Shown: positions 5,233 through 54,528 of the stretch, piece by piece
Position numbering within the stretch: position 1 is the stretch's first letter
How the letters are laid out: the number at the start of each line of letters is the position of its first letter
Assembly (NCBI RefSeq): GCF_026210795.1
Contig: NC_089445.1
Coordinates: 2,046,001 to 2,110,000, forward strand
Reading direction: 5' to 3'
DNA from: Rhizophagus irregularis
Lineage: Eukaryota > Glomeromycota > Glomeromycetes > Glomerales > Glomeraceae
DNA: 64,000 nt
The notes under the pieces: model-generated
Databases searched by the model: none
Told to the model about the DNA's origin: nothing
What the model saw: the letters and a program-made list of their open reading frames with translations, nothing else
Position numbers and translations under genes: made by a program

Positions 5233-8200
5233 TTAAATCCAACTATCTCTCCGTATTGGAACATCGAAAGTTCTTTTAGCACTAATAGGACGATTTGATC
5301 TTAAAGATCCTTTACTATTCCTATAGACATCCTTCGGAGCCTCAAATGTATTTTTTTCTTCTTGATTATATCCACTATATCCTGCATTATTATTATTATT
5401 ATTATTAGATGACAAACTTTCTTCGGTTACAATATCAAATCCTTCCCAATCTTTACTCTTCAATTTTTGTTTCCAATTATTATAATCATCTGGGTTAATT
5501 GATGCATGCTTCTGATGTCTTTGTTGTCTTTGCTTCCAATATAATTCACCGTCCTTATTATCATAAGCAGGAAGGGGTGCATTTAAGTCATCAACTTCTT
5601 GAGCTTTCGTTGAACTATGCGACATCTCTGGTTGCGATGGCATTCCACGTGCATTACGTAACATATTCTTTAGGTTTTGTGCAACCGCGTTTTCATCAAT
5701 CTGATCACTAAATTCCTTAGTTTTCATCTTTCTTCTCTTTACAGCAATACATCTTATCAACAGAGCAGCTAAGATTAACAATAAGAGCGAACCACCCGCA
5801 ATTATAAGAATATGCCACCATTGAAGTTTTATGGGGACGATTGACTGTTTTTCTTCTTTAATTATTTCTCCAGGTGGAATAATATCTTCACCGTTCAAAC
5901 TTTGACAGAGTTTTTCAACTTTGACTAGCTCACTTCCAGTTGGACATGATCCACTACAAGTGCCACCAAGTAAAACTTTTGTTTGATCATTGCATCCAAG
6001 ACATTGATCGTTCCTTGGTCCTACGCATGAAGAACAATCTTCATTACATTTTTGGCAATTTTCTCCATCAGCATAGGTTCCCTTCGGACAAACTTCTACA
6101 CATTGACCATTTATTAAACTTGGACGTTCAGGTGAACATTTTGTACATTGATTAATTCCTGGGCCAGAACATTCTACACAATCTACGTGGCATTTTTTAC
6201 AAATATTGTCAATTGCTACGAATCCTGAAGGACATGGGTCGGTTGAACATACTCCATCGTGATTAAAGGAATCTTTTCGACATGTTTTACAATTATTGTT
6301 TCGAGGACCATTACAAGTGTCACAACTATCGTCGCATACTGTATAGAAATAAAAAAAATTTTTTTAAGTACAACTATGAGTGTGGATAGTAAGTATTATC
6401 ATTGAATTCAACATACCTTGACAGGAGTTATTGGTAGTATTGGCATATGTTCCTGGGGGGCAATTTTCAACACATTCGGTACCATTAAGGAAATGTCCCG
6501 GTATACATTTTGTACATTGCAAACCTTTAAGAACATCAACAGCACTTGTTGGAGTGAAATTTTGAATATTGCAATCTGTGCATGTACTTGGACAAGGTTT
6601 ACAAATTTGTTGAGCATTATCAGCAATAAAACTTTGATTTGTATTTGCAGCCGGAATACATTTACCACTATCTGGAACAATATCGACGCAAGAACCCTCC
6701 AAATACAACTTCGGCGGTTGACATTTCAAACAAATTGGTCCAGAGCAATTTAAACAAAATGACACGGTACATGTGGGTTGTGATATAGATTGATTTTGGT
6801 CTTGAGAAAAAATGCATTTGCCGTTACCATCATCTTTAAGACCTTGTTGACATGTTATACATTTGCCATTTTCACATGCCTCACAACCCGGAGGGCATGG
6901 CTCGCATTCGGTATCAGATAGGAAATATCCTTCTTTACATAAAGTGCAATTTTGTGCATTATCCAGAGTAAAACCGGCATTACATATACATTTATTTTGT
7001 TCGTCACATATACCATTAACACAATTGCATTCTAAAATTTATAAATGAAGAGTAAATATGGATCGTATTTTAAATAAAAATTGTTAAAAATAACGTACTT
7101 TCACACGTATTGCCAATTTTAGTAAAACCGGGAGCACATATATCGCAATTGTCACCAGTAAATCCATCATTACAACTGCATTTCCCAAATCCTGTCATTG
7201 AATCATCACACTTATTTTTATTAAGAACCGTCGTGCATTGGCATTGTTGACATGTTGGGCCATAGAATCCAGGTTCACACTGTTCACAACTGTCTCCAGC
7301 AAAACCTTTATAGCATGAACAATTACCGTTAAGTGAGCAAATTCCACCAGACCCACAATCGTTTTTGCATTTAGCTGAAGTAATAATAATAATTTTTAGT
7401 AAAATAAATAAAAAATTTTTTATTTATAAATATGTTTACTTACTTGCGGAGATATCTAAACTAGCGGCAAAGTCTTGTTTTAATGCTACTGAGACACCAG
7501 TAAAATTAGCGATAGGTTCAAACAAACCGAGATTATTACCAGTGAAATTTGGATTTGACCAAATAACTCCACGTAAACCTTCAGGAATTAAAACCGAACC
7601 AATAATTAAACTTGAAGTGTTTTTTTCACCAACTTTCATAAATTTGCTCGCGCTAAAATAAGCAGGTTGTTCATAAATAATCATCCCGGGCTTTAATTTG
7701 ACGGAAATTATTGAGGTAAGAGAATTGATAGGTGACATTTGTGCAACATCGTTATCGAATGTTTTAATATTATTGTTTCCACTATCAATAACAAATTCGA
7801 ATCCAGGTGGAATTTCAAGGGAGAATGGGGAGAAAAAAATTTCTTGAGGAAGAAATTTCGAATTATAATCATTTATGAAAAGTTGTTGTGAGTCACCAAC
7901 AAATCCCGACTTAAGATATAAGTTTACCGCGTCTTAAAAATTAGGATACGTCAGTAACGTGATCTACATAAATCACAATAGTAATAGTAGGAAAATACTT
8001 ACTTGGAGCTACATGATAATGATTCCAAGAGGTTGGACCTCCATTAGATTGACAATTTCCTACGTTAACTACACCTCCTAGTTGACTTAAACATTCGTTA
8101 GGTTTAGCAACACTTAAAATTTTATCATCAGCTAAAGTCCACTTTTGAGCATTTCCATTATCACAAGGACAAGCTTCTACATTATTTGTCGAAGTAGCAC

Positions 8201-8574
8201 TTAAACATAATTGATTATCATTTGTTTCGATCATAATAGTAGAATTATCGGTTAATTGCGAAGAAGTATTTAAAGGAATAAAATTCCATTTTAATGAAAC
8301 TGAGAAATTAGAAAATCTGTCCGTAGGGCAAGGATTCAAAGTCACAGGTATACATGAAGAAGAAGAGGATGGTAATAAGTCAAGGCATGAAAGCGTTTGT
8401 GCATTACGAATAAATCTTGCTGTTAAATGAAAATTTAATTTGATCAGTAATGAAATAAATGATAATAAAATTTTTAAAATTATCGAAGATAAAAAGCAAC
8501 TAACCTGTTTGTACATATGACAAATTTGTTAAAAACAAAAAAGATAGAAAAACATAAACAAATGAGAAATTCAT
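5233..8574 (-). CDS. Secreted/type I membrane protein with EGF-like and furin-like Cys-rich repeats
   Basis: A 990-residue surface protein; role unknown. Exons on the minus strand: 8505-8574, 8003-8419, 7444-7932, 7099-7374, 6417-7031, 5233-6338. Exon 1 encodes a signal peptide (MNFSFVYVFLSFLFL and on). Residues about 24-162 carry a weak ricin-B-like pattern (CLSATS, NAQKWTL, SWNHY). The next exon has YEQPAYF and SNPNFTGNN, reminiscent of a beta/gamma-crystallin fold (weak). Exon 4 encodes EGF/laminin-type repeats (CSCYKGFAGDSCEQCEPGFY). Exons 5-6 encode many furin-like repeats of CxxC/CPxGTY type (NCPPGTYANTTNNSC, CPKGTYADGENCQKC). A single transmembrane helix (WWHILIIAGGSLLLLILAAL) is followed by about 195 polar cytoplasmic residues with a poly-Asn tract and Lys/Arg-rich blocks. 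The architecture suggests a receptor-like or adhesive protein; no kinase domain is present. Confidence 0.85.
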
Positions 8575-24602: not shown

Positions 24603-25889
24603 TTAATAACGGTTTCCTTGTCCTCTTGGACATCTGTTAGCGAAATGTCCTTTCTCTCCACACTAATTCAAAAAAAAAAAAATTTATCATTATTTAATAT
24701 TATGCATATTTGTAACTCGTTCTTAACATACCTTGAAACACGTTACTTCAGATAAAGATCGGTAATTGTGATGTTGCTGTTGATGTTGATGATGTTGTTG
24801 TTGATGTTGTTGATGTTGTTGATGTTGTTGATGTTGTTGATGTTGTTGATGTTGTTGATGTTGATGCTGTTGATGTTGATGCTGTTGGTGCTGTTGGTGC
24901 TGTTGATGATGTTGTTGATGTTGTTGATGTTGTTGGTGTTGTTGGTGTTGCTGTTGTGGCGGCGTTTGTTGCTGTTGTTGTCCCATTCTTTGATTCTTTA
25001 TTAAAAAGAAATAACTATAATGATTAAAATAATAACATAAAGAATAATCTCCATAAAAAAATTAATTTTTTACTTCTTCATTTTCCATAGAATATTTTTG
25101 AATTCCTTCATCTTCAAGTCCATCATGATCACGCTGTACTGTAGGTAATTCATATTTTGGACTAATAAAATAAATAATGTTAAGCCAATTCATGAATATT
25201 ATGTGCATAAATTATATATACAAAAAAGTACTTACTGTCCATTAGGACAATCTGACCCTTTTGGGCAGAAACCACTCAAGTACAACTGACATACAACTTT
25301 TCGTACATGTTTATGTCTACAATGTGGACCTAAAAGAAAAAAATAATAATAATTAGTGTACTTGTCAAATATAGAATTATTTTAATCGATGCAATTTACC
25401 ATGTTTACAAAAGCCTCTCGCGTACCAAGCACATTCCTTTATTTTAGATTCTGGATCGATATGTAGATACATACAATCCTCATTACTACATTCACCATAT
25501 CTAGAATAGAACCAACATTCGGGCATTTTTCTCATATTAAATTCGTGTAAGAATTCACATTGGTCTCCTTTTTTGCAAAGTCCACGTAACCAATGTTTGC
25601 ATACTACAGCTTTTTCACGAAAATTTGTAGTATGCTTGAATTCACACTTCATGCCCTTCGTACATGTTCCTCTTAAAAAATCTTGACAAATTTGATCTAA
25701 AATGTAAATCAGATTTATAAACAAATTAAATGAAAAAGAATTTTATCTATCAAATTAAATTCTTATTAATAAGAAATTTATAATACCTGAATCGCTATTG
25801 TTACCAAGTCCTATTTCTGTTTTAATGAAATCTTCGAAATCAAAACTATAATTTTTGCTATTTGTATGGAAAAAATCTGTATCAGGCAT
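24603..25889 (-). CDS. YTH1: CPSF4/Yth1, polyadenylation factor CCCH zinc-finger subunit
   Basis: Subunit of the mRNA 3'-end cleavage and polyadenylation complex that helps read AAUAAA. Exons 25787-25889, 25400-25696, 25236-25329, 25074-25161, 24732-24995, 24603-24662 encode 301 residues. Five CCCH fingers: CQDFLRGTCTKGMKCEFKH, CKHWLRGLCKKGDQCEFLH, CWFYSRYGECSNEDCMYLH, CAWYARGFCKHGPHCRHKH and CQLYLSGFCPKGSDCPNGH. A C-terminal CCHC zinc knuckle (CFKCGEKGHFANRCPRG), split by an intron, is present as in animal CPSF4 and absent from budding-yeast Yth1. Between finger 5 and the knuckle lies a Gln/His low-complexity tract of about 70 residues. The start MPDTDFFHTN lies in the region duplicated with the neighbouring tropomyosin promoter. 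Confidence 0.93.
24775..24985. repeat. TGTTGATGT-type microsatellite coding the Gln/His tract of CPSF4
   Basis: About 210 bases of imperfect TGTTGATGT/TGTTGGTGT repeats. On the minus strand they read as HQQ units in frame within CPSF4. Expect length variation between isolates. The Leu/Met-rich frame on the plus strand is a shadow. Confidence 0.9.
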
Positions 25890-26291
25890 GTTTTTATGGT
25901 TAAGATGAAAAACTTAAAAACTTTATTAAATTTTATTATTTGCTGCTTTTGATACAATTACGATAAAATCTTTAAATATCTAAATAAAATCTATTTTTCA
26001 AAATATTCTAAACTAAATATTCAAGTGGAATAAAGTATCTTTAAAATGTGGTGGATCTAATTATTTTTGAACGAAGACAAAATCTAACACTTTGAAACTT
26101 AAAATATTAAATCAAAGTTGTGATAGAACTAGATTTGTAATTTGTCATATTTATATGCTATTGTTTATTGATCATAAATTCACGTGATCTCAAACTTTAA
26201 AGTTCGAGGTTAAACTCGAAAAATAGTGTAAGTCGTCACACATTATTTGTCAATAACATTTTTATCTATTTATTCATTTTATTATAGACTA

Positions 26292-26432
26292 ACGGATAAA
26301 TTTAGGGAAATAAGTAAATTATCTTTTATTTTTATGTTCGTAAAATTTTAAGAGAGTCTTAGAGCCATGTCTATTTGTATGATAGATCTCATTTAATTTC
26401 CACAATTCATTTTGTCCCAATTCGCTATCCAA
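26292..26432 (+). pseudogene. Remnant of tropomyosin 5' end (copy A of the duplication)
   Basis: ACGGATAAATTTAGGGAA at 26292 matches the live tropomyosin exon 1 (ATGGATAAATTTAAGGAA at 26879) but the start reads ACG and the splice donor reads ATAAGT. Further on, the match covers intron 1 and a shortened exon 2 start ending CAACGCGC. No coding capacity left. Confidence 0.75.
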
Positions 26433-26433
26433 C

Positions 26434-26543
26434 GCGCCTGTTGAATCGCTATTATTGACTAAACTTATTTCTGTTTTAATAAAATCTTCAAAATCAAAAC
26501 TCTAATTTTTGTCATTTGTATGGGAAACATCTGTATCAGCCAT
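26434..26543 (-). pseudogene. Remnant of CPSF4 exon 1 (copy B of the duplication)
   Basis: The minus strand from 26543 keeps an ATG and would read MADTDVSHTNDKN before a stop, against MPDTDFFHTNSKNYSF in the live exon. It has no connection to the remaining CPSF4 exons, which lie beyond the live exon 1. Confidence 0.75.
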
Positions 26544-26878
26544 GTTTTAAAAAACTTTGCTGCTTTTGATACGATTACGAGAAAATCCTTAAGTATCTAA
26601 AATAAAAACTATTTTCAAAAAATATTCTACGAGCGGAATAAAGTATCTTTAAAATGTAGTGGTGGATTTAAACGATTTTAACGAAGACAAAATTTGAAAC
26701 TTAATAAGGTTATATATTTTTATATATCAGATATGCTAATATTTATAATAGTTTGCGATCATATATTCACGTGATCTCAAACTTTAAAGTTAGGAGTCGT
26801 TACACATTTCTTGACAATAATAATACGTTTTATCTATTTATTCATTTTCTCTTCCTTGGTCATTTTATTTAAAAACTT

Positions 26879-27699
26879 ATGGATAAATTTAAGGAAGTAA
26901 GTATTTATTTTTATGTTCGGTATATTCTTGATTGTTCTTTTAGCTAGATAAAGATGTCTAGATATTTATTCCTGTAAAGCGATGTCAAAATTATTTATAA
27001 CCGTGTAATTTGACCAGAATTTCTTGCATTTTTAAAGTACAAAACATTAATTCATGAGTGCGAAGAGTCTTAGAGTCATGTCTATTTATATGATAGATAT
27101 CTTTTAATTTTCCGCGATTTATATTTCTGATTTTTATCCATAGAAAATCAATTCGCTTCGCGCTGAAGCTGATGCATCTGTTCAACGCGCTGAAAATGCT
27201 GAAGCTGAATTAAAAAAGGCCAAAGAAGATATAATTGTAAAAGAACAAGAAATCATTTCCCTTACCAATAAAATTTCACTTTTGGAAGCTGAAGTTGAAC
27301 GTGCTGATAAAAAAATTAGTGATCTAAAATCTGCGAAAGAGGAAGAGGAATCAACTTCAAGTACCACTGAAGCACTTCAAAGAAAAATTTCTATACTTGA
27401 AAATGAATTGGATACCACTGAAAAGAATTTGAAGGAAACTACTGAAAAGTAAGAATTTTATTTATTATCGAGATCTAAGTTCGAATAATGTTATATATGT
27501 TTGTAAAATAATATTTAAAAATATTTTTATTTTAAGGTTACGCACAACAGATGTTAAAGCCGAGCACTTTGAGCGTAAGTGTAACACTCTTGAATCCGAG
27601 AAAGCCGATTTAGAAAAGAAACTTGATGAAAAGGAACAGGAATTTAAAAAGAAGGAAGAAGAATTAGAAGCCACACTGAAACAACTTGAGGATATGTAG
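26879..27699 (+). CDS. TPM1: Tropomyosin, fungal type
   Basis: Coiled-coil dimer that polymerises along formin-made actin cables and supports polarised growth. Exons 26879-26896, 27144-27448 and 27537-27699 give 161 residues, the usual fungal length. Exon 1 encodes only MDKFKE; the join gives MDKFKEKINSLRAEADASVQ, very close to the fungal tropomyosin start MDKIREKLNALRLEAEAA. The rest is an uninterrupted heptad-rich helix (AENAEAELKKAKEDIIVKEQ, EVERADKKISDLKSA) ending EATLKQLEDM. Intron 1, 247 bases, is long for this window. A second intron splits a Lys codon in TEKLRTT. It diverges from CPSF4; its promoter is copy B of the duplicated region. Confidence 0.93.
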
Positions 27700-45452: not shown

Positions 45453-48310
45453 TTTGATAATTTTAAAATGTCAATTCGTTTCAAACTCAAATTATGGACT
45501 TTTGCTTTTTTTTTTGTCGTTAAAAAATATATAATAAAAGACAAAAGCAAAGGTTCCGATCTTCAGGATAAAAAATGGCTTATTTAAGGGTTTTTTTTTT
45601 ATTTTTTGTAAACCTTCGTGTGATACCGGTAATTTTTGTGGATCACCTTATCTAGTATCAGCGCCAAAGAAAAAAAAAGATAAGATTCACGGCAGATTCT
45701 CGAATAAAATTAAATAGAACACGGTTTACAAATAATCTGACATTAATATTTATTTATTAAACAATGATTAAGTAATATATTATTCATTGATAGGCAAACT
45801 AGGAATAAACTGCTTTACAAATGCAATAATACAATAAAATAAAATAAAATTTATTTTTAAACTTTTTGAATGAAATTCATTATTTTTTTTATATTTTTTT
45901 AGTAAGAAGATTGAATCAACGAAATAAAGATAATTAATTGAAAAAGATGGATATAACATTCTTTTTTTAGAGATCAAAATTTGATACGTACGAAAGGGAA
46001 ATTTTGGGCATTTAATTTTGAAAACATTGACGCGAAATTAGTACACGGGGGTCTAGACGTGCATATTGCATTTTTACATTGTATTACATATGCATTGTAT
46101 GATTTATAATAGCAATTATCAAAATCTTTGTTTGTAGGTTTTTTACGTGATCATGATCTGATGATCATATTATTATATATATTGAGTATATATATATATT
46201 ACATTAATACAAGTTTTTATTTTCTGGTCTAGAACGAACAGAACGAAGTTGGATTTAATTTACTTAATTACTTATCATTATTTATCTTATCTTTCGTGAT
46301 ATAATTAATTTTTTATCTTATCAGCTAAAAGTCACCCGTGCCCGATTTCCAGGTTATTGATCAGCTTAATAACGCAGTTCTTGCTGTTTTTAGCTTATCT
46401 ATTTATGATTTTCAATAAACAGTTTTTCCATTTTGGTACTTCATTACTTATCATTGATAAATTATTGGTGAGTTCGATTAAGTATTATTTAAAAAAAAAA
46501 GAAATTATATTATTTACTGGGAGCAATCACCCCTTTTTTTAATACTGTATATGCGTTTACATATGAATACGTTTTCGAGTTCCGTATCCGTCCGGTAGTA
46601 ACGATGTAAAATGGATTGAATTTTAAAAAAAAAATTTCATTTCTCATAGGCTACAACTTAATTTCTATAATTAGTTTAATTATTATTTTTATTTTATTTT
46701 ATTTTATTTTATTTATTTATCTTTTTTTTTAAAAAAAAGAAAGTTCTGATCTTAAAATAAAACAAATACAAAAAGTGGAACGACACTTATCTTAAAAATT
46801 GATAGGTAATAAAAAAAAAAATTTTTTTCATTTTTGTTTATTTGGTCACAAATTGCTTATCTACGAAATGTTTGACATGCTTAATTCACATGTTTTGAAG
46901 ATCCAAATTTTCTAGAAGACTGTTCTAAATATCATTGATAACTTATCAAATTCGTATCTTCTTTATCACCCGTTTTTTTCTGACTATGGATAATCGTAAT
47001 CTTATCAAAAGAGTTAAAGATTGCGTCTCGTAGAGTAACTACTAAAAAAAACGTAAGATTTTTATCGAATTATTCTTATCTTTATATACTTGAAGGACAA
47101 TGGTTACTTCATTCGATCTATGTATCTTCGTATCTTTGTCATTATAGATATGAAATATATGATAGAAATATTTTTTAAACGTTAAACGTATTACATTACT
47201 TAATCATTATTATTATGTATATCACCTGTCAGATAACGTGATACTAATAATGTGTGCTACGCCTATATCGATACGGAAAATTTTAATCTTGGTGTGGGAA
47301 AAATTTGTTATAAAAAAATTCCGCTACGTGGGAAAGTAACAAATAAATTTGATCCTATTTCTTTTTTTTTTCTTTGCTCAATTGCCAAGAATTGATCGAT
47401 ATACATATACTAACTATATTTTATATTGTTGAAATTTTACTGAGTCAGATTTAAAGAATAAAAGGAAACTATTTACTATTTACGTAAATTATCAATGATC
47501 TCGGATTCGGAAATTAATTTTTCTTTTTTTGATTCACTTCTCCACGCGGAAAATTTGATAAGATATCTTTTTTTTTTATTATTTTTGCATATTCAAGAAA
47601 TTTTTATTTGACAACGTTGATCTTTCATATATAAGATACGATCTTCGCTTTCGGATTTTCCGCATATTCGCGTACCACTTGCTTATCTTTTTTCGAACAA
47701 AAAAAAAAAGAAATTATAAAAATGCCGCTACTTTATCCATTTTTCATTTTTAATTTTTAATTTTCATTTATCATTTATCATTTATCATTTTTCATATATC
47801 ATATTTCATTTTTCATTTTCCATTTTCCATTTTTCATTTTTCATTAATCATTTTTCATTTTTCATTTTCCATTTTCCATTTTTCATTTTTCATTAATCAT
47901 TTTTCATTTTTCATTTTCCATTTTCATTTTTATAAATATTAGTCAGCTTACGCTCATAATGAATACACAATTAATGTCCATGTAGAATATTATTAATTTT
48001 TTACGTTCAAAGTTTAATCCTTTTAAGCATTTATTAAAATCTTTGGAACCATTAATATACAAGTTAGTTCAAATTAATTCCTTAATGCTATGTTATTTTT
48101 GGTAATTACCCATAAATTTTACACTTATGTAATTTCATTTACGATATGATATTTCAGAAATGTATCCTACGGATAATGTCAATACTATCCGCTCCGTTCA
48201 ATGATGATTCGAGTTGTATAATCTCAAATGCTTTATATACCACTCTCAAATTTTCTTATCTTCTTCTCTTTCTTTCAAAAAAATTTTAAATAGCTATACA
48301 CTTCGTAAAG
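45453..48310. promoter_or_regulatory. Divergent region with clustered GATA-factor sites
   Basis: Between the nitrate transporter and the 48.3-kb gene. The 7-mer CTTATCT/AGATAAG occurs at about 45647, 45678 (inverse orientation), 46286, 46394, 46786, 46856, 47075, 47683 and 48255, besides looser GATA cores such as TTATCTTATCAGC near 46313. The first two form an inverted pair about 200 bases from the transporter start. No gene is supported here; also contains a (TTTTA)n run near 46690-46720 and the repeat block at 47745. Confidence 0.6.
47745..47936. repeat. TTTTCAT-type tandem repeat with higher-order unit
   Basis: About 190 bases of 7-base units (CATTTTT, CATTTTC, CATTAAT, CATTTAT). A compound unit of about 55 bases containing CATTAATCATTTTTCATTTT is repeated twice in a row. 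Low complexity, no CRISPR-like spacers. Confidence 0.85.
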
Positions 48311-49573
48311 ATGCCATTTTATGATGATGATGATGATAGACCATTTTATAAAAATAAATTATTGATTTCAGCTGAAAGGAGATCTGCGTTTGAAGAAAAA
48401 ACTTCATATAGAGATCGTAATAATAATTATTCCACAACTAAAACTAGTTATGAATCTGAAATAAAATTTAAATCATCAATTCCTTTATATACTCCATCTG
48501 AATCAAATCGTGTTACACCTTATAAAAATTATACTCCCAAGATTTCTGATTCAGGTTGTGTTACGACATATAAAAATAATACCCCATTTAAGGGTTCTGC
48601 TGAAATTATTAATTCAGAACGTACGTCGATTAGAAATTATAGATCTAATGGTTCTGCTAGTTTAGATCATATGTTACATAATAATTATGAATCTAAATTT
48701 TCAGCTGAAATTGCTAATAAAGATGATAATGATTTTAAAATTGAAGCAAGAGCGAGAAGAATGTATGATTCAGATATTAATGGTGTCAAAACTAAATTTG
48801 ATGTAGGTGGTTCAGGTTTATTTGATATTAAAAATAATAATTATAAACTTGAAGCAAATATGGGAGGAATGGTTGATTCAGATAATATAAAAGCTAATTT
48901 TGATGCAGATTGTTCAGGTTTATTTGATATTAAAAATAATAATTATAAACTTAAAGCAAAAGCGAGAGGAATGGCTGAATTGGATACTGACGATCTTAAA
49001 GCTAAAATTGAAGCAGATGGTTCAGCTTCATGGGATAATGTGAGTAATGATTTTAATATTGAAGGAAGAATGAAAGGAATGGTTAAATCAGATTTTGATG
49101 ATGGTTCCACAGCTAAAGTTGAAGTAGATTGTTCAGGTTCATGTGGAAACAATGAAAGAAAAATCGGTGCAAGTATTAAATCATCAATTCAAAAAGATGA
49201 ACTTACTTTTCTTCAAAGTAAAGGTTCGGTTAAGTCAGATGATCTAAAAATAAGTTCAAAACTCAGTAGTACGGTATTTAGAGCTAAAGATGAAGATATG
49301 GATTTCAAATTTTTAAATGCTACAGTAGAAAATAAATTTGGAATAAATAAGGATGGTGTAGATTGTATGGAAAAATTAGGGGTAAGTTTGGTGGAATTTG
49401 AGGGTGCAGGCATTAAATCGAAAATTGGATTAAATCTTGATACAGGAATGTCAGTCAATAGTAACACTATGGAAATTAAAGTAGAAGGTTTTGGTATCAA
49501 ATTAGGAAAAGAAACAGGTTTTAGTACACCTATTGGAGAAGTTTCAGTTGACCTTGGTAGATATCTCGATTGA
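48311..49573 (+). CDS. Unrecognised 420-residue protein with about 35-residue internal repeats
   Basis: Single exon; not recognised. Residues 1-110 are polar and disordered-looking (MPFYDDDDDRPFYKNK; then two TPYKNYTP/TTYKNNTP motifs). From about 114 there are degenerate tandem units: starts near 114 (longer), 167, 202, 237 and 274, with consensus GSG-LFD-hydrophilic-NNxYKLEAxxxGMxxSDxxxxKAxxxAD. The units at 167 and 202 share an identical run of over 40 bases at 105-base spacing, so that duplication is recent. The C-terminal 75 residues form a different Gly-rich, alternating polar/hydrophobic region (IKSKIGLNLDTGMSV, EIKVEGFGIKLGKETGFSTP). This pattern suggests beta strands. No signal peptide and no transmembrane segment. 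A TTTATATA box at about 48231 lies 80 bases before the ATG. Codon usage and length make a real gene likely. Confidence 0.75.
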   Translation: MPFYDDDDDRPFYKNKLLISAERRSAFEEKTSYRDRNNNYSTTKTSYESEIKFKSSIPLYTPSESNRVTPYKNYTPKISDSGCVTTYKNNTPFKGSAEIINSERTSIRNYRSNGSASLDHMLHNNYESKFSAEIANKDDNDFKIEARARRMYDSDINGVKTKFDVGGSGLFDIKNNNYKLEANMGGMVDSDNIKANFDADCSGLFDIKNNNYKLKAKARGMAELDTDDLKAKIEADGSASWDNVSNDFNIEGRMKGMVKSDFDDGSTAKVEVDCSGSCGNNERKIGASIKSSIQKDELTFLQSKGSVKSDDLKISSKLSSTVFRAKDEDMDFKFLNATVENKFGINKDGVDCMEKLGVSLVEFEGAGIKSKIGLNLDTGMSVNSNTMEIKVEGFGIKLGKETGFSTPIGEVSVDLGRYLD

Positions 49574-52201: not shown

Positions 52202-53166
52202 ATTTAAGCATGTTCTTTTATTTTTCTCCTTGAAAAGTACTTTTATCAACTTGAATTGTACTTTTTTTTCAAATAAATAAATGTTGTCTATTTTATAACA
52301 ATAAATTTCACTTTTTTCATGCATGTACAGTAGGTAATGTGCACATATAAAAACTCCTTGTTGTACCTTTTTCCGGATGCTATTTCCCAATTTCTGAATG
52401 CTCATTTTCGAAACTGGATCATATTCCGAAATTCCATTTTCCCGAATGTCACTTTATCTCAATTTCCAATAAATAATAAACAAACATTAGGGAATTATTG
52501 CGCCGAGAATTTTATTGTCCAGTTATTAATTTGTATACTTAATTACTGTATAGTATACGTAAAAAAATTGTTATTGCTTATTATTTATTATTTTGCAATC
52601 AAATAATCTTTTGGCAGTTAATCATTTTTATGCACCGTATGGCCAAGCCAAAATGAAATGGGTTAAAAAGAAATCTATACATCATTTATTTATGATCCAA
52701 TCGGATTTTGCAATATTGGGGTCGTGGGTATTTGGTACCGCTGGTACGCATCACATCTATCACGTGATTTATTACACCTTTCCTTATATATAGCTATCCG
52801 CAGTAACACGTGATCGAAAGTCTTACTAAATAAGGAAATCCGCAGTATATCATGTGATAGGATGTGATGCGTACCTGCTATTGCGGTATTGCCTAGTACC
52901 TATAACCCCGCACCAACTATCTAATGTTTGGAAAATGTATTTCGGAAAATCCAGCTGCAGCCATAATAATCATAAATAATCATATGCAATTCTTTTTGTG
53001 CGTATTACGGTATTTATTTATTTTAATCAGCTAAACTCGTGATAATTTGCAGATCCAACCTTTTATAATTTGCCCTTAAAAAAAACTTAAAAAGCTGATC
53101 TTTTTTCTTTCTTGGAATTTTTTTTTCCAAAATACTTATCAAAATTCAAAGCAATCTTTAATAATA
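52202..53166. other. Intergenic containing one MITE
   Basis: No gene. Polyadenylation-like AATAAATAAATG at about 52273. The element at 52719-52910 is described separately. The remainder leads into the PLP-enzyme promoter. Confidence 0.5.
52719..52910. mobile_element. Short MITE with long inverted repeats (about 75 bases)
   Basis: The two arms face each other: GGTACGCATCACATCTATCA on the left and, read on the minus strand, GGTACGCATCACATCCTATC on the right. Pairing extends outward to GGGG at 52719 and CCCC ending 52910, and inward to TTTCCTT/AAGGAAA. The spacer is about 50 bases. CACGTGA E-box-like cores occur in it. No target-site duplication was clear. No coding capacity. Confidence 0.75.
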
Positions 53167-54528
53167 ATGTCAAAAGAAGAATCAACTTTTAAATTTGGAC
53201 ATCCAATGCGATCACAATTTCTTTTAGATAATGATTATATACCACTTAATCATGGATCGTATGGAACTATTCCTAAGGTCGTTCAAGAAGCTTTCCGTGA
53301 ATATCAAGATAAAATGGAAACTAATCCTGACAAGTTTTTTCGCAGAGATTTAGAATTAGAATTATGTAAAGCCAGAGAAGCTGTAGCAAAATTTATAAAT
53401 GCTGAAACAAATGAAGTGGTTTTTGTACAAAATACTACAACTGGTATTAATTCAGTTTTGAAAAGTTTGAAATATGAAGAAGGTGATAAATTACTTTATT
53501 TTTCGACAGTTTATGCTGCTATAGGAAGTTTATTAGAATATATTCATGAAATATATGAAGGAAAAGTTGAACTTATCAAAATTGAAGTAAATTATCCTAT
53601 ATCAGATGATGATTTAATTGATAAATTTGTCAAAGTCATTGAAGAGGAAAAACAAAAACCAAATACGAAAATCAAATTGGCCGTAATTGATGCTATATCT
53701 TCTACTCCCGGTTTGTAATCCTTTATTATTATTATTATTTTCACGTAATGCCATAAAATTAATTGTGTTTATAATCCTCTTAGGAGTTATTGTACCTTTT
53801 CAACGTATGATTTCTATTTTGAGACAAAATAATATTCTTTCTGTCGTTGATGGAGCTCATGCAATTGGTCAAATTCCTCTAAATATTAAAGAAATTGAAC
53901 CAGATTTTTTTGCGACAAATTGTCACAAATGGTTATATACACCTAAAAGTTCTGCTATTCTTTATGTTCCATATAAACATCAGAAAAAGATTCATCCTTC
54001 TGTTACAAGTTTATATTTACATGAAGGGTTTGTTTCCGAATTCTCATGGATTGGAACACAAGATTTTGGGTGAGTGAACTAGTGAATGAATTTTTTTTAC
54101 ATATTAAATTTATATAAGATTAGAAAATAATATAATATACGTCCATTTTTAGTTCATTTTTGGCGATTCATGCTGCTTTGGAATTTCGCAAAAAAATTGG
54201 TGGTGAAGAAAAGATTCAAAATTATTGCAAAAAATTGGCTATTGAAGGAGGAAATTTAATTTCTTCAATTCTTGGTACGGAAATAATTGGACCAGAAAGT
54301 ATTATTCAAAGTATGGTCAATATTAGGTTACCAATTCCTACATCAAATGAAGAATTTACTGATAAAAAATTTATGGATTTAATGTTTAATAAGTATAATT
54401 TTGCTGTACTTGTATTTAAACATAATAAATATTGGTATATTAGAGCTAGCGCACAAATTTATACAGATTTAAATGATTTTGAAAAAGTTGGTTATATTGT
54501 AAAAGAAATTTGTGATTCTTTTAAATAA
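53167..54528 (+). CDS. PLP-dependent class V aminotransferase-fold enzyme (cysteine desulfurase/epimerase-like)
   Basis: Exons 53167-53710, 53784-54069, 54153-54528 encode 401 residues. N-terminal YIPLNHGSYGTIPKVVQEAF is typical of the isopenicillin-N-epimerase-like/LolT/Egt2 branch. FVQNTTTGINSVLKSL gives the PLP-phosphate-binding region. The PLP-ring Asp is in VVDGAHAIGQIP, and the Schiff-base Lys is in ATNCHKWLYTPKSSA. The C-terminal domain ends VRASAQ-like (IRASAQIYTDLNDFEKVG). In fungi such proteins include the hercynylcysteine sulfoxide lyase of ergothioneine synthesis and cysteine lyases; the exact substrate cannot be told. No transit peptide is apparent. Confidence 0.9.

Follow-up and report, generated by a model that had tools for sequence, protein, structure and literature searches.

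The genes for CPSF4/Yth1 and tropomyosin lie divergently on a stretch of Rhizophagus irregularis DNA where the region between them appears to be present twice, which raises the question of which copy serves which gene and of how the arrangement came about. We analysed this locus within a window, the whole stretch of 64,000 nucleotides with a G+C content of 27%, a value in keeping with Rhizophagus. The first-pass annotation had proposed that the divergent CPSF4-tropomyosin region, with both first exons, occurs twice in direct orientation, and its coordinates proved correct. One of the checks proposed with that claim, a self-alignment, was performed; it returned colinear similarity between the copies and left the duplication standing, as one colinear direct repeat of two adjacent copies.

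25788 to 26440, unstranded: copy A, from the self-alignment, with live CPSF4 exon 1, the intergenic region, dead tropomyosin exon 1, part of intron 1 and a damaged piece of exon 2
26442 to 27196, unstranded: copy B, from the self-alignment, with dead CPSF4 exon 1, the intergenic region, live tropomyosin exon 1, intron 1 and the start of exon 2

Global alignment of 25788-26440 (copy A, now 653 bases long) with 26442-27196 (copy B, now 755 bases) gave 482 identical columns of 548 aligned (88.0%), with 33 transitions and 33 transversions (K2P 0.13) and 30 gap events. The local score of A against B was 260.25 under a gentle scheme and 413 under a strict one, compared with highest scores of 85.75 and 120, respectively, when copy A was set against other stretches of the window (400 draws, of which 374 were kept and 26 dropped by overlap rules). 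Being adjacent, colinear and direct, with similarity above chance, the copies form a partial tandem duplication. In ungapped repeat finding, A and B appear as separate families with spacings of 568 to 711 bases because indels intervene. Mismatch rate differed marginally across ten segments (Monte Carlo p = 0.047, the segments being chosen after the alignment had been seen), and the least similar segment was 26111-26169, with 32 of 43 columns identical. We also note an inverted repeat, TTCGAGGTT/AAACTCGAA, at 26203-26220 (89% complementary), which overlaps a stretch of about 23 bases that copy A has and copy B lacks, a small insertion or deletion.

When the window was compared with itself by BLAST (E up to 1e-8, with a low-complexity filter that hides a simple repeat at 24.76-25.0 kb), rows came from two loci only, the A/B duplication and a repeat at 48.7-49.1 kb. 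At the latter locus, tandem repeats with a spacing of about 106-108 bases and a similarity of 69-75% occupy 48682-49145, inside an open frame of 427 codons (48290-49573) that had no Pfam match at E 0.001. Elsewhere in the window, neighbouring minus-strand open frames at 5233-8528 have ricin-B-lectin and TNF-receptor-like matches, together with a growth-factor-receptor match just under its cut-off; judged by these matches, the frames may perhaps belong to one gene for a cysteine-rich surface protein.

The CPSF4/Yth1 gene can be read from copy A as a single frame, with GT and AG at every junction from exon 25889-25787 through exon 25161-25074. Its parts, and the second copy of its first exon, are as follows.

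25787 to 25889, minus strand: live CPSF4/Yth1 exon 1, 103 nt, with ATG at 25889 and donor GTATTA, joined in frame to the CCCH exons
25696-25400, 25329-25236 and 25161-25074, minus strand: CPSF4/Yth1 exons 2-4, each with a GT donor and an AG acceptor
26442 to 26543, minus strand: dead CPSF4 exon 1 copy in B, with the ATG kept at 26543, TAG at codon 14 (26504-26502) and GT missing from the donor position

The top PDB matches of the protein are CPSF4 chains (E 8.1e-66), and there is a match to yeast YTH1 (E 2.2e-48), whose chains align with residues 6-69 of the query. Pfam CCCH and zinc-knuckle families were matched by a hand-joined, shortened version of the product. Ahead of the zinc knuckle, the protein has a Q/H-rich run that is specified by a long repeat with a period of 9 bases at 24760-25000, within a CPSF4 exon. 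Between A and B, CPSF4 exon 1 is identical at 87 of 102 columns and is no better conserved than the non-coding parts. The 15 differences are split 7/5/3 over codon positions 3/1/2, roughly the pattern to be expected if one copy is under constraint and the other is free. At codon 14, A probably preserves the older, coding state and the TAG in B is the younger one, because this codon falls in the stretch that matches YTH1, the match being taken as the query range 6-69 of the PDB search.

Tropomyosin, in turn, is readable from copy B, and further pieces of its first two exons are left in copy A.

26879 to 26896, plus strand: live tropomyosin exon 1, encoding MDKFKE, with donor GTAAGT at 26897-26902
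27144 to 27448, plus strand: tropomyosin exon 2, with AG acceptor at 27142-27143 and donor GTAAGA
27537 to 27699, plus strand: tropomyosin exon 3 with the stop, completing a product of 161 aa
26292 to 26309, plus strand: dead tropomyosin exon 1 copy in A, with ACG in place of ATG and ATAAGT at 26310-26315
26418 to 26440, plus strand: tropomyosin exon 2 remnant in A, with deletions and no AG acceptor, ending at the junction

The product of 161 residues matches Pfam Tropomyosin (E 1.8e-30) and aligns over residues 1-161 of both sequences with a solved tropomyosin, PDB 8puz_A (E 3.4e-28). The live exon 1 in B reads ATG GAT AAA TTT AAG GAA, followed by GTAAGT, and its counterpart in A reads ACG GAT AAA TTT AGG GAA, followed by ATAAGT; the change of ATG to ACG and of the donor to ATAAGT, both part of the original description of copy A, are thus confirmed. 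By pattern search, the first donor-like site after the ACG in A is GTAAAT at 26314, use of which would shift the frame by base count.

CPSF4 is readable only from its near copy (A) and tropomyosin only from its near copy (B). This agrees with the first-pass annotation, according to which only the CPSF4 start still works in copy A and only the tropomyosin start connects to its gene in copy B: in A, CPSF4 exons 1 and 2 join in frame and tropomyosin has ACG, ATAAGT and no acceptor, and in B the CPSF4 exon copy carries TAG at codon 14 and lacks a donor. We found five disabling lesions, all of them in the far copies, and saw none in the near exons that were read. Such confinement is expected whenever both genes are alive, and it therefore offers no independent evidence for a process or for selection. 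Likewise, that each gene has one promoter follows from the tandem geometry and shows neither selection nor uncoupling.

The edges of the duplicated unit lie at the border between CPSF4 exon 1 and intron 1 (left) and within tropomyosin exon 2 (right), and they meet at the following place.

26426 to 26455, unstranded: duplication junction, where tropomyosin exon 2 sequence runs into the CPSF4 exon 1/intron 1 border

This position of the junction, the TAG at codon 14 of the CPSF4 exon copy in B and the exon 2 remnant of A, without the AG acceptor that B has at 27142-27143, are details that go beyond the first-pass annotation. CTGAA occurs at both edges, and three times near the edge on the tropomyosin exon 2 side. 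The microhomology is weak, a match of at least 5 bases with a slack of two being found in 5.7% of random position pairs, and naming a repair route from the CTGAA match was rejected on that account.

Overall, we conclude that a small partial tandem duplication very probably doubled the divergent region, with the near copies intact and the far starts broken. The ancestor would have been single-copy, with CPSF4/Yth1 and tropomyosin divergent around one intergenic region, and the duplication would have doubled the whole of that intergenic region, both first exons and the start of tropomyosin exon 2. Since both copies point the same way, the one next to each gene stays intact: CPSF4 has A and tropomyosin has B. 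For the CPSF4 start in B, the splice donor most probably disappeared at the breakpoint itself, and this exon copy carries a stop codon as well; had the break occurred right at the exon border, the copy would never have had a donor and would have been born disconnected. The tropomyosin start in A, on the other hand, could at first have spliced to the second exon of B, and would have lost its ATG, donor and acceptor afterwards. The exon lesions are complementary, as "reciprocal decay" of the unused starts would predict, but the CPSF4 donor in B probably went at the breakpoint and not by decay. Because CPSF4 exon 1 in B was probably born disconnected, a symmetric "reciprocal decay" is not the simplest account.

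The first-pass annotation had further singled out blocks that stayed alike in both copies, above all one containing CACGTG, as candidate functional sites.

26170 to 26204, unstranded: CACGTG block of copy A, with CACGTG at 26181-26186 and the palindrome AACTTTAAAGTT at 26193-26204
26757 to 26791, unstranded: CACGTG block of copy B, with CACGTG at 26768-26773 and AACTTTAAAGTT at 26780-26791

The block is identical at 34 of 35 bases (97%) between A and B, compared with 448 of 513 for the rest (Fisher p = 0.11, the ends of the block having been chosen for likeness). Ten runs of 12-27 identical bases are kept in both copies; the longest, ATTCACGTGATCTCAAACTTTAAAGTT, has 27 bases against a mean of 27.6 in 20,000 column shuffles (p = 0.50), and the longest run with one miss has 35, where shuffling averaged 37.8 (p = 0.63). 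The similarity of the CACGTG block lies within chance by run length and by Fisher's test, and the claim that it marks a specially conserved or functional site is not upheld. More generally, conserved blocks were rejected as evidence for functional footprints, as column shuffling reproduces the longest runs; comparing A with B gave no retained elements above background, a comparison that has little power with two copies this old.

CACGTG is a known site of bHLH factors. It occurs at 11 sites in the window, compared with 2.34 expected (none of 100 dinucleotide shuffles reached 11) or with 7.9 expected under a fourth-order model, which contains the sites themselves. Because the dinucleotide and fourth-order expectations differ, the enrichment depends on the null model, and it was set aside as evidence. 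CACGTGAT or ATCACGTG, the flanks of which we take to resemble the yeast Cbf1 consensus, is present at 7 of the 11 sites (p = 0.006) and, with one of the duplicate pair omitted, at 6 of 10 (p = 0.016), both tests being made after the sites had been seen. The palindrome AACTTTAAAGTT is exact only in the two copies within the window; with one mismatch allowed it has four matches there, a number that 5 of 100 shuffles also attained. A pair of CACGTGAT sites with a spacing of 46 bases is also seen at 52761-52812, about 270-320 bases ahead of a stop-to-stop frame (53080-53718) with a class V aminotransferase match.

It could be argued that the release of CPSF4 and tropomyosin from a shared promoter is what caused the duplication to be retained, the copies then specialising in one direction each. 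Such regulatory uncoupling is in keeping with the complementary lesions in the two copies and with the distance between the live start codons, which is 989 bp, compared with 402 bp in A and 335 bp in B for the paired starts of a single copy; with start codons as a proxy for transcription starts, the genes are head to head, with less than 1 kb between starts. However, geometry alone yields the same pattern, and no identical run exceeds the expectation from column shuffling, and we consider it unlikely that uncoupling is why the duplication was kept. It likewise seems improbable to us that one bidirectional promoter was split into two one-way promoters under independent control, while the silent inner halves between them (26292-26543) decayed. 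Were the split real, an RNA-processing gene (CPSF4) and a cytoskeletal gene (tropomyosin) would have come under independent control; and should each copy fire one way only, the locus would amount to a natural experiment in the separation of shared promoters, in which two copies of one sequence, of the same age, are each freed from one of two duties.

The far copies might instead still work, as alternative upstream promoters, untranslated leaders or a second activating element, so that two copies serve each gene. The persistence in both copies of the ten identical runs described above would suit this possibility, and there is a precedent in PEP1 of Arabis alpina, where, according to the excerpted report, both duplicated first exons are spliced to one exon 2 (PMC3527215). 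The persistence of such runs is within chance, though, and the far starts themselves argue against it: the CPSF4 exon in B has a stop at codon 14 and no donor, and the GTAAAT at 26314, the first donor-like site after the tropomyosin ACG in A, would shift the frame. Working far copies appear doubtful on this evidence. Fungi of the Rhizophagus kind can be heterokaryotic, and two alleles might on these grounds have been set side by side as an assembly or haplotype artefact; in our judgement, however, a substitution divergence of 12%, 30 gap events and lesion sets that are opposite in the two copies exceed what is expected of alleles, which makes this explanation very improbable. The same 12% divergence and 30 gap events, again as a matter of judgement on the sequence, make a duplicate created by the assembly unlikely. 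The tandem copies at this locus are real and neat, and they are mostly an ordinary local duplication, for which the evolutionary reading is plausible as a description. As things stand, partial tandem duplication has here a clear small case, and the case carries the caution that complementary loss in such a tandem layout follows from geometry.

Searches for relatives were made in two collections, genome_contigs and viral_contigs, which are prokaryotic and viral and hold no fungi, so that missing matches say little about fungi. CPSF4 relatives gave 28 pattern matches in genome_contigs and 4 in viral_contigs, none of them confirmed; a 24-base block had no relative in viral_contigs, and a 21-base pattern of tropomyosin exon 1 and its donor matched two bacterial contigs in genome_contigs, which we take as chance. 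Among the literature matches listed, the titles and opening parts of the abstracts named neither this locus nor a comparable duplicated bidirectional promoter.

How does the doubled region compare with known systems? In the excerpt available, divergently paired genes are defined by start sites less than 1 kb apart (PMC2670823). The genes here are likewise head to head, with start codons that are separated within a copy by 402 bp in A and 335 bp in B; unlike those pairs, as the excerpt presents them, the region between them is doubled, which puts 989 bp between the live start codons. RiPho4 of R. irregularis interacted with phosphate-transporter promoters through CACGTG/T in a yeast one-hybrid assay, as described in part of that report (PMC9895418). 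The CACGTG core is common to these bHLH sites, those of RiPho4 (PMC9895418) and Cbf1, and to both copies here; in contrast to the RiPho4 promoters as partially described (PMC9895418), the CACGTG of our locus is a sequence match only, with conservation within chance. The closest precedent that we found is PEP1 of Arabis alpina, in which, from the excerpted account, a partial tandem duplication of exon 1 and parts of the promoter and intron 1 left two functional starts, both of which splice to a single exon 2, with sequences further upstream sharing little (PMC3527215). In both cases, the tandem copies comprise the first exon with a portion each of the proximal promoter and of intron 1, and they precede a common gene body. 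As far as the excerpt goes, however, PEP1 is one gene with both first exons in use and with only parts of the promoter duplicated (PMC3527215), whereas here the whole intergenic region is doubled between two divergent genes, each with its far start broken.
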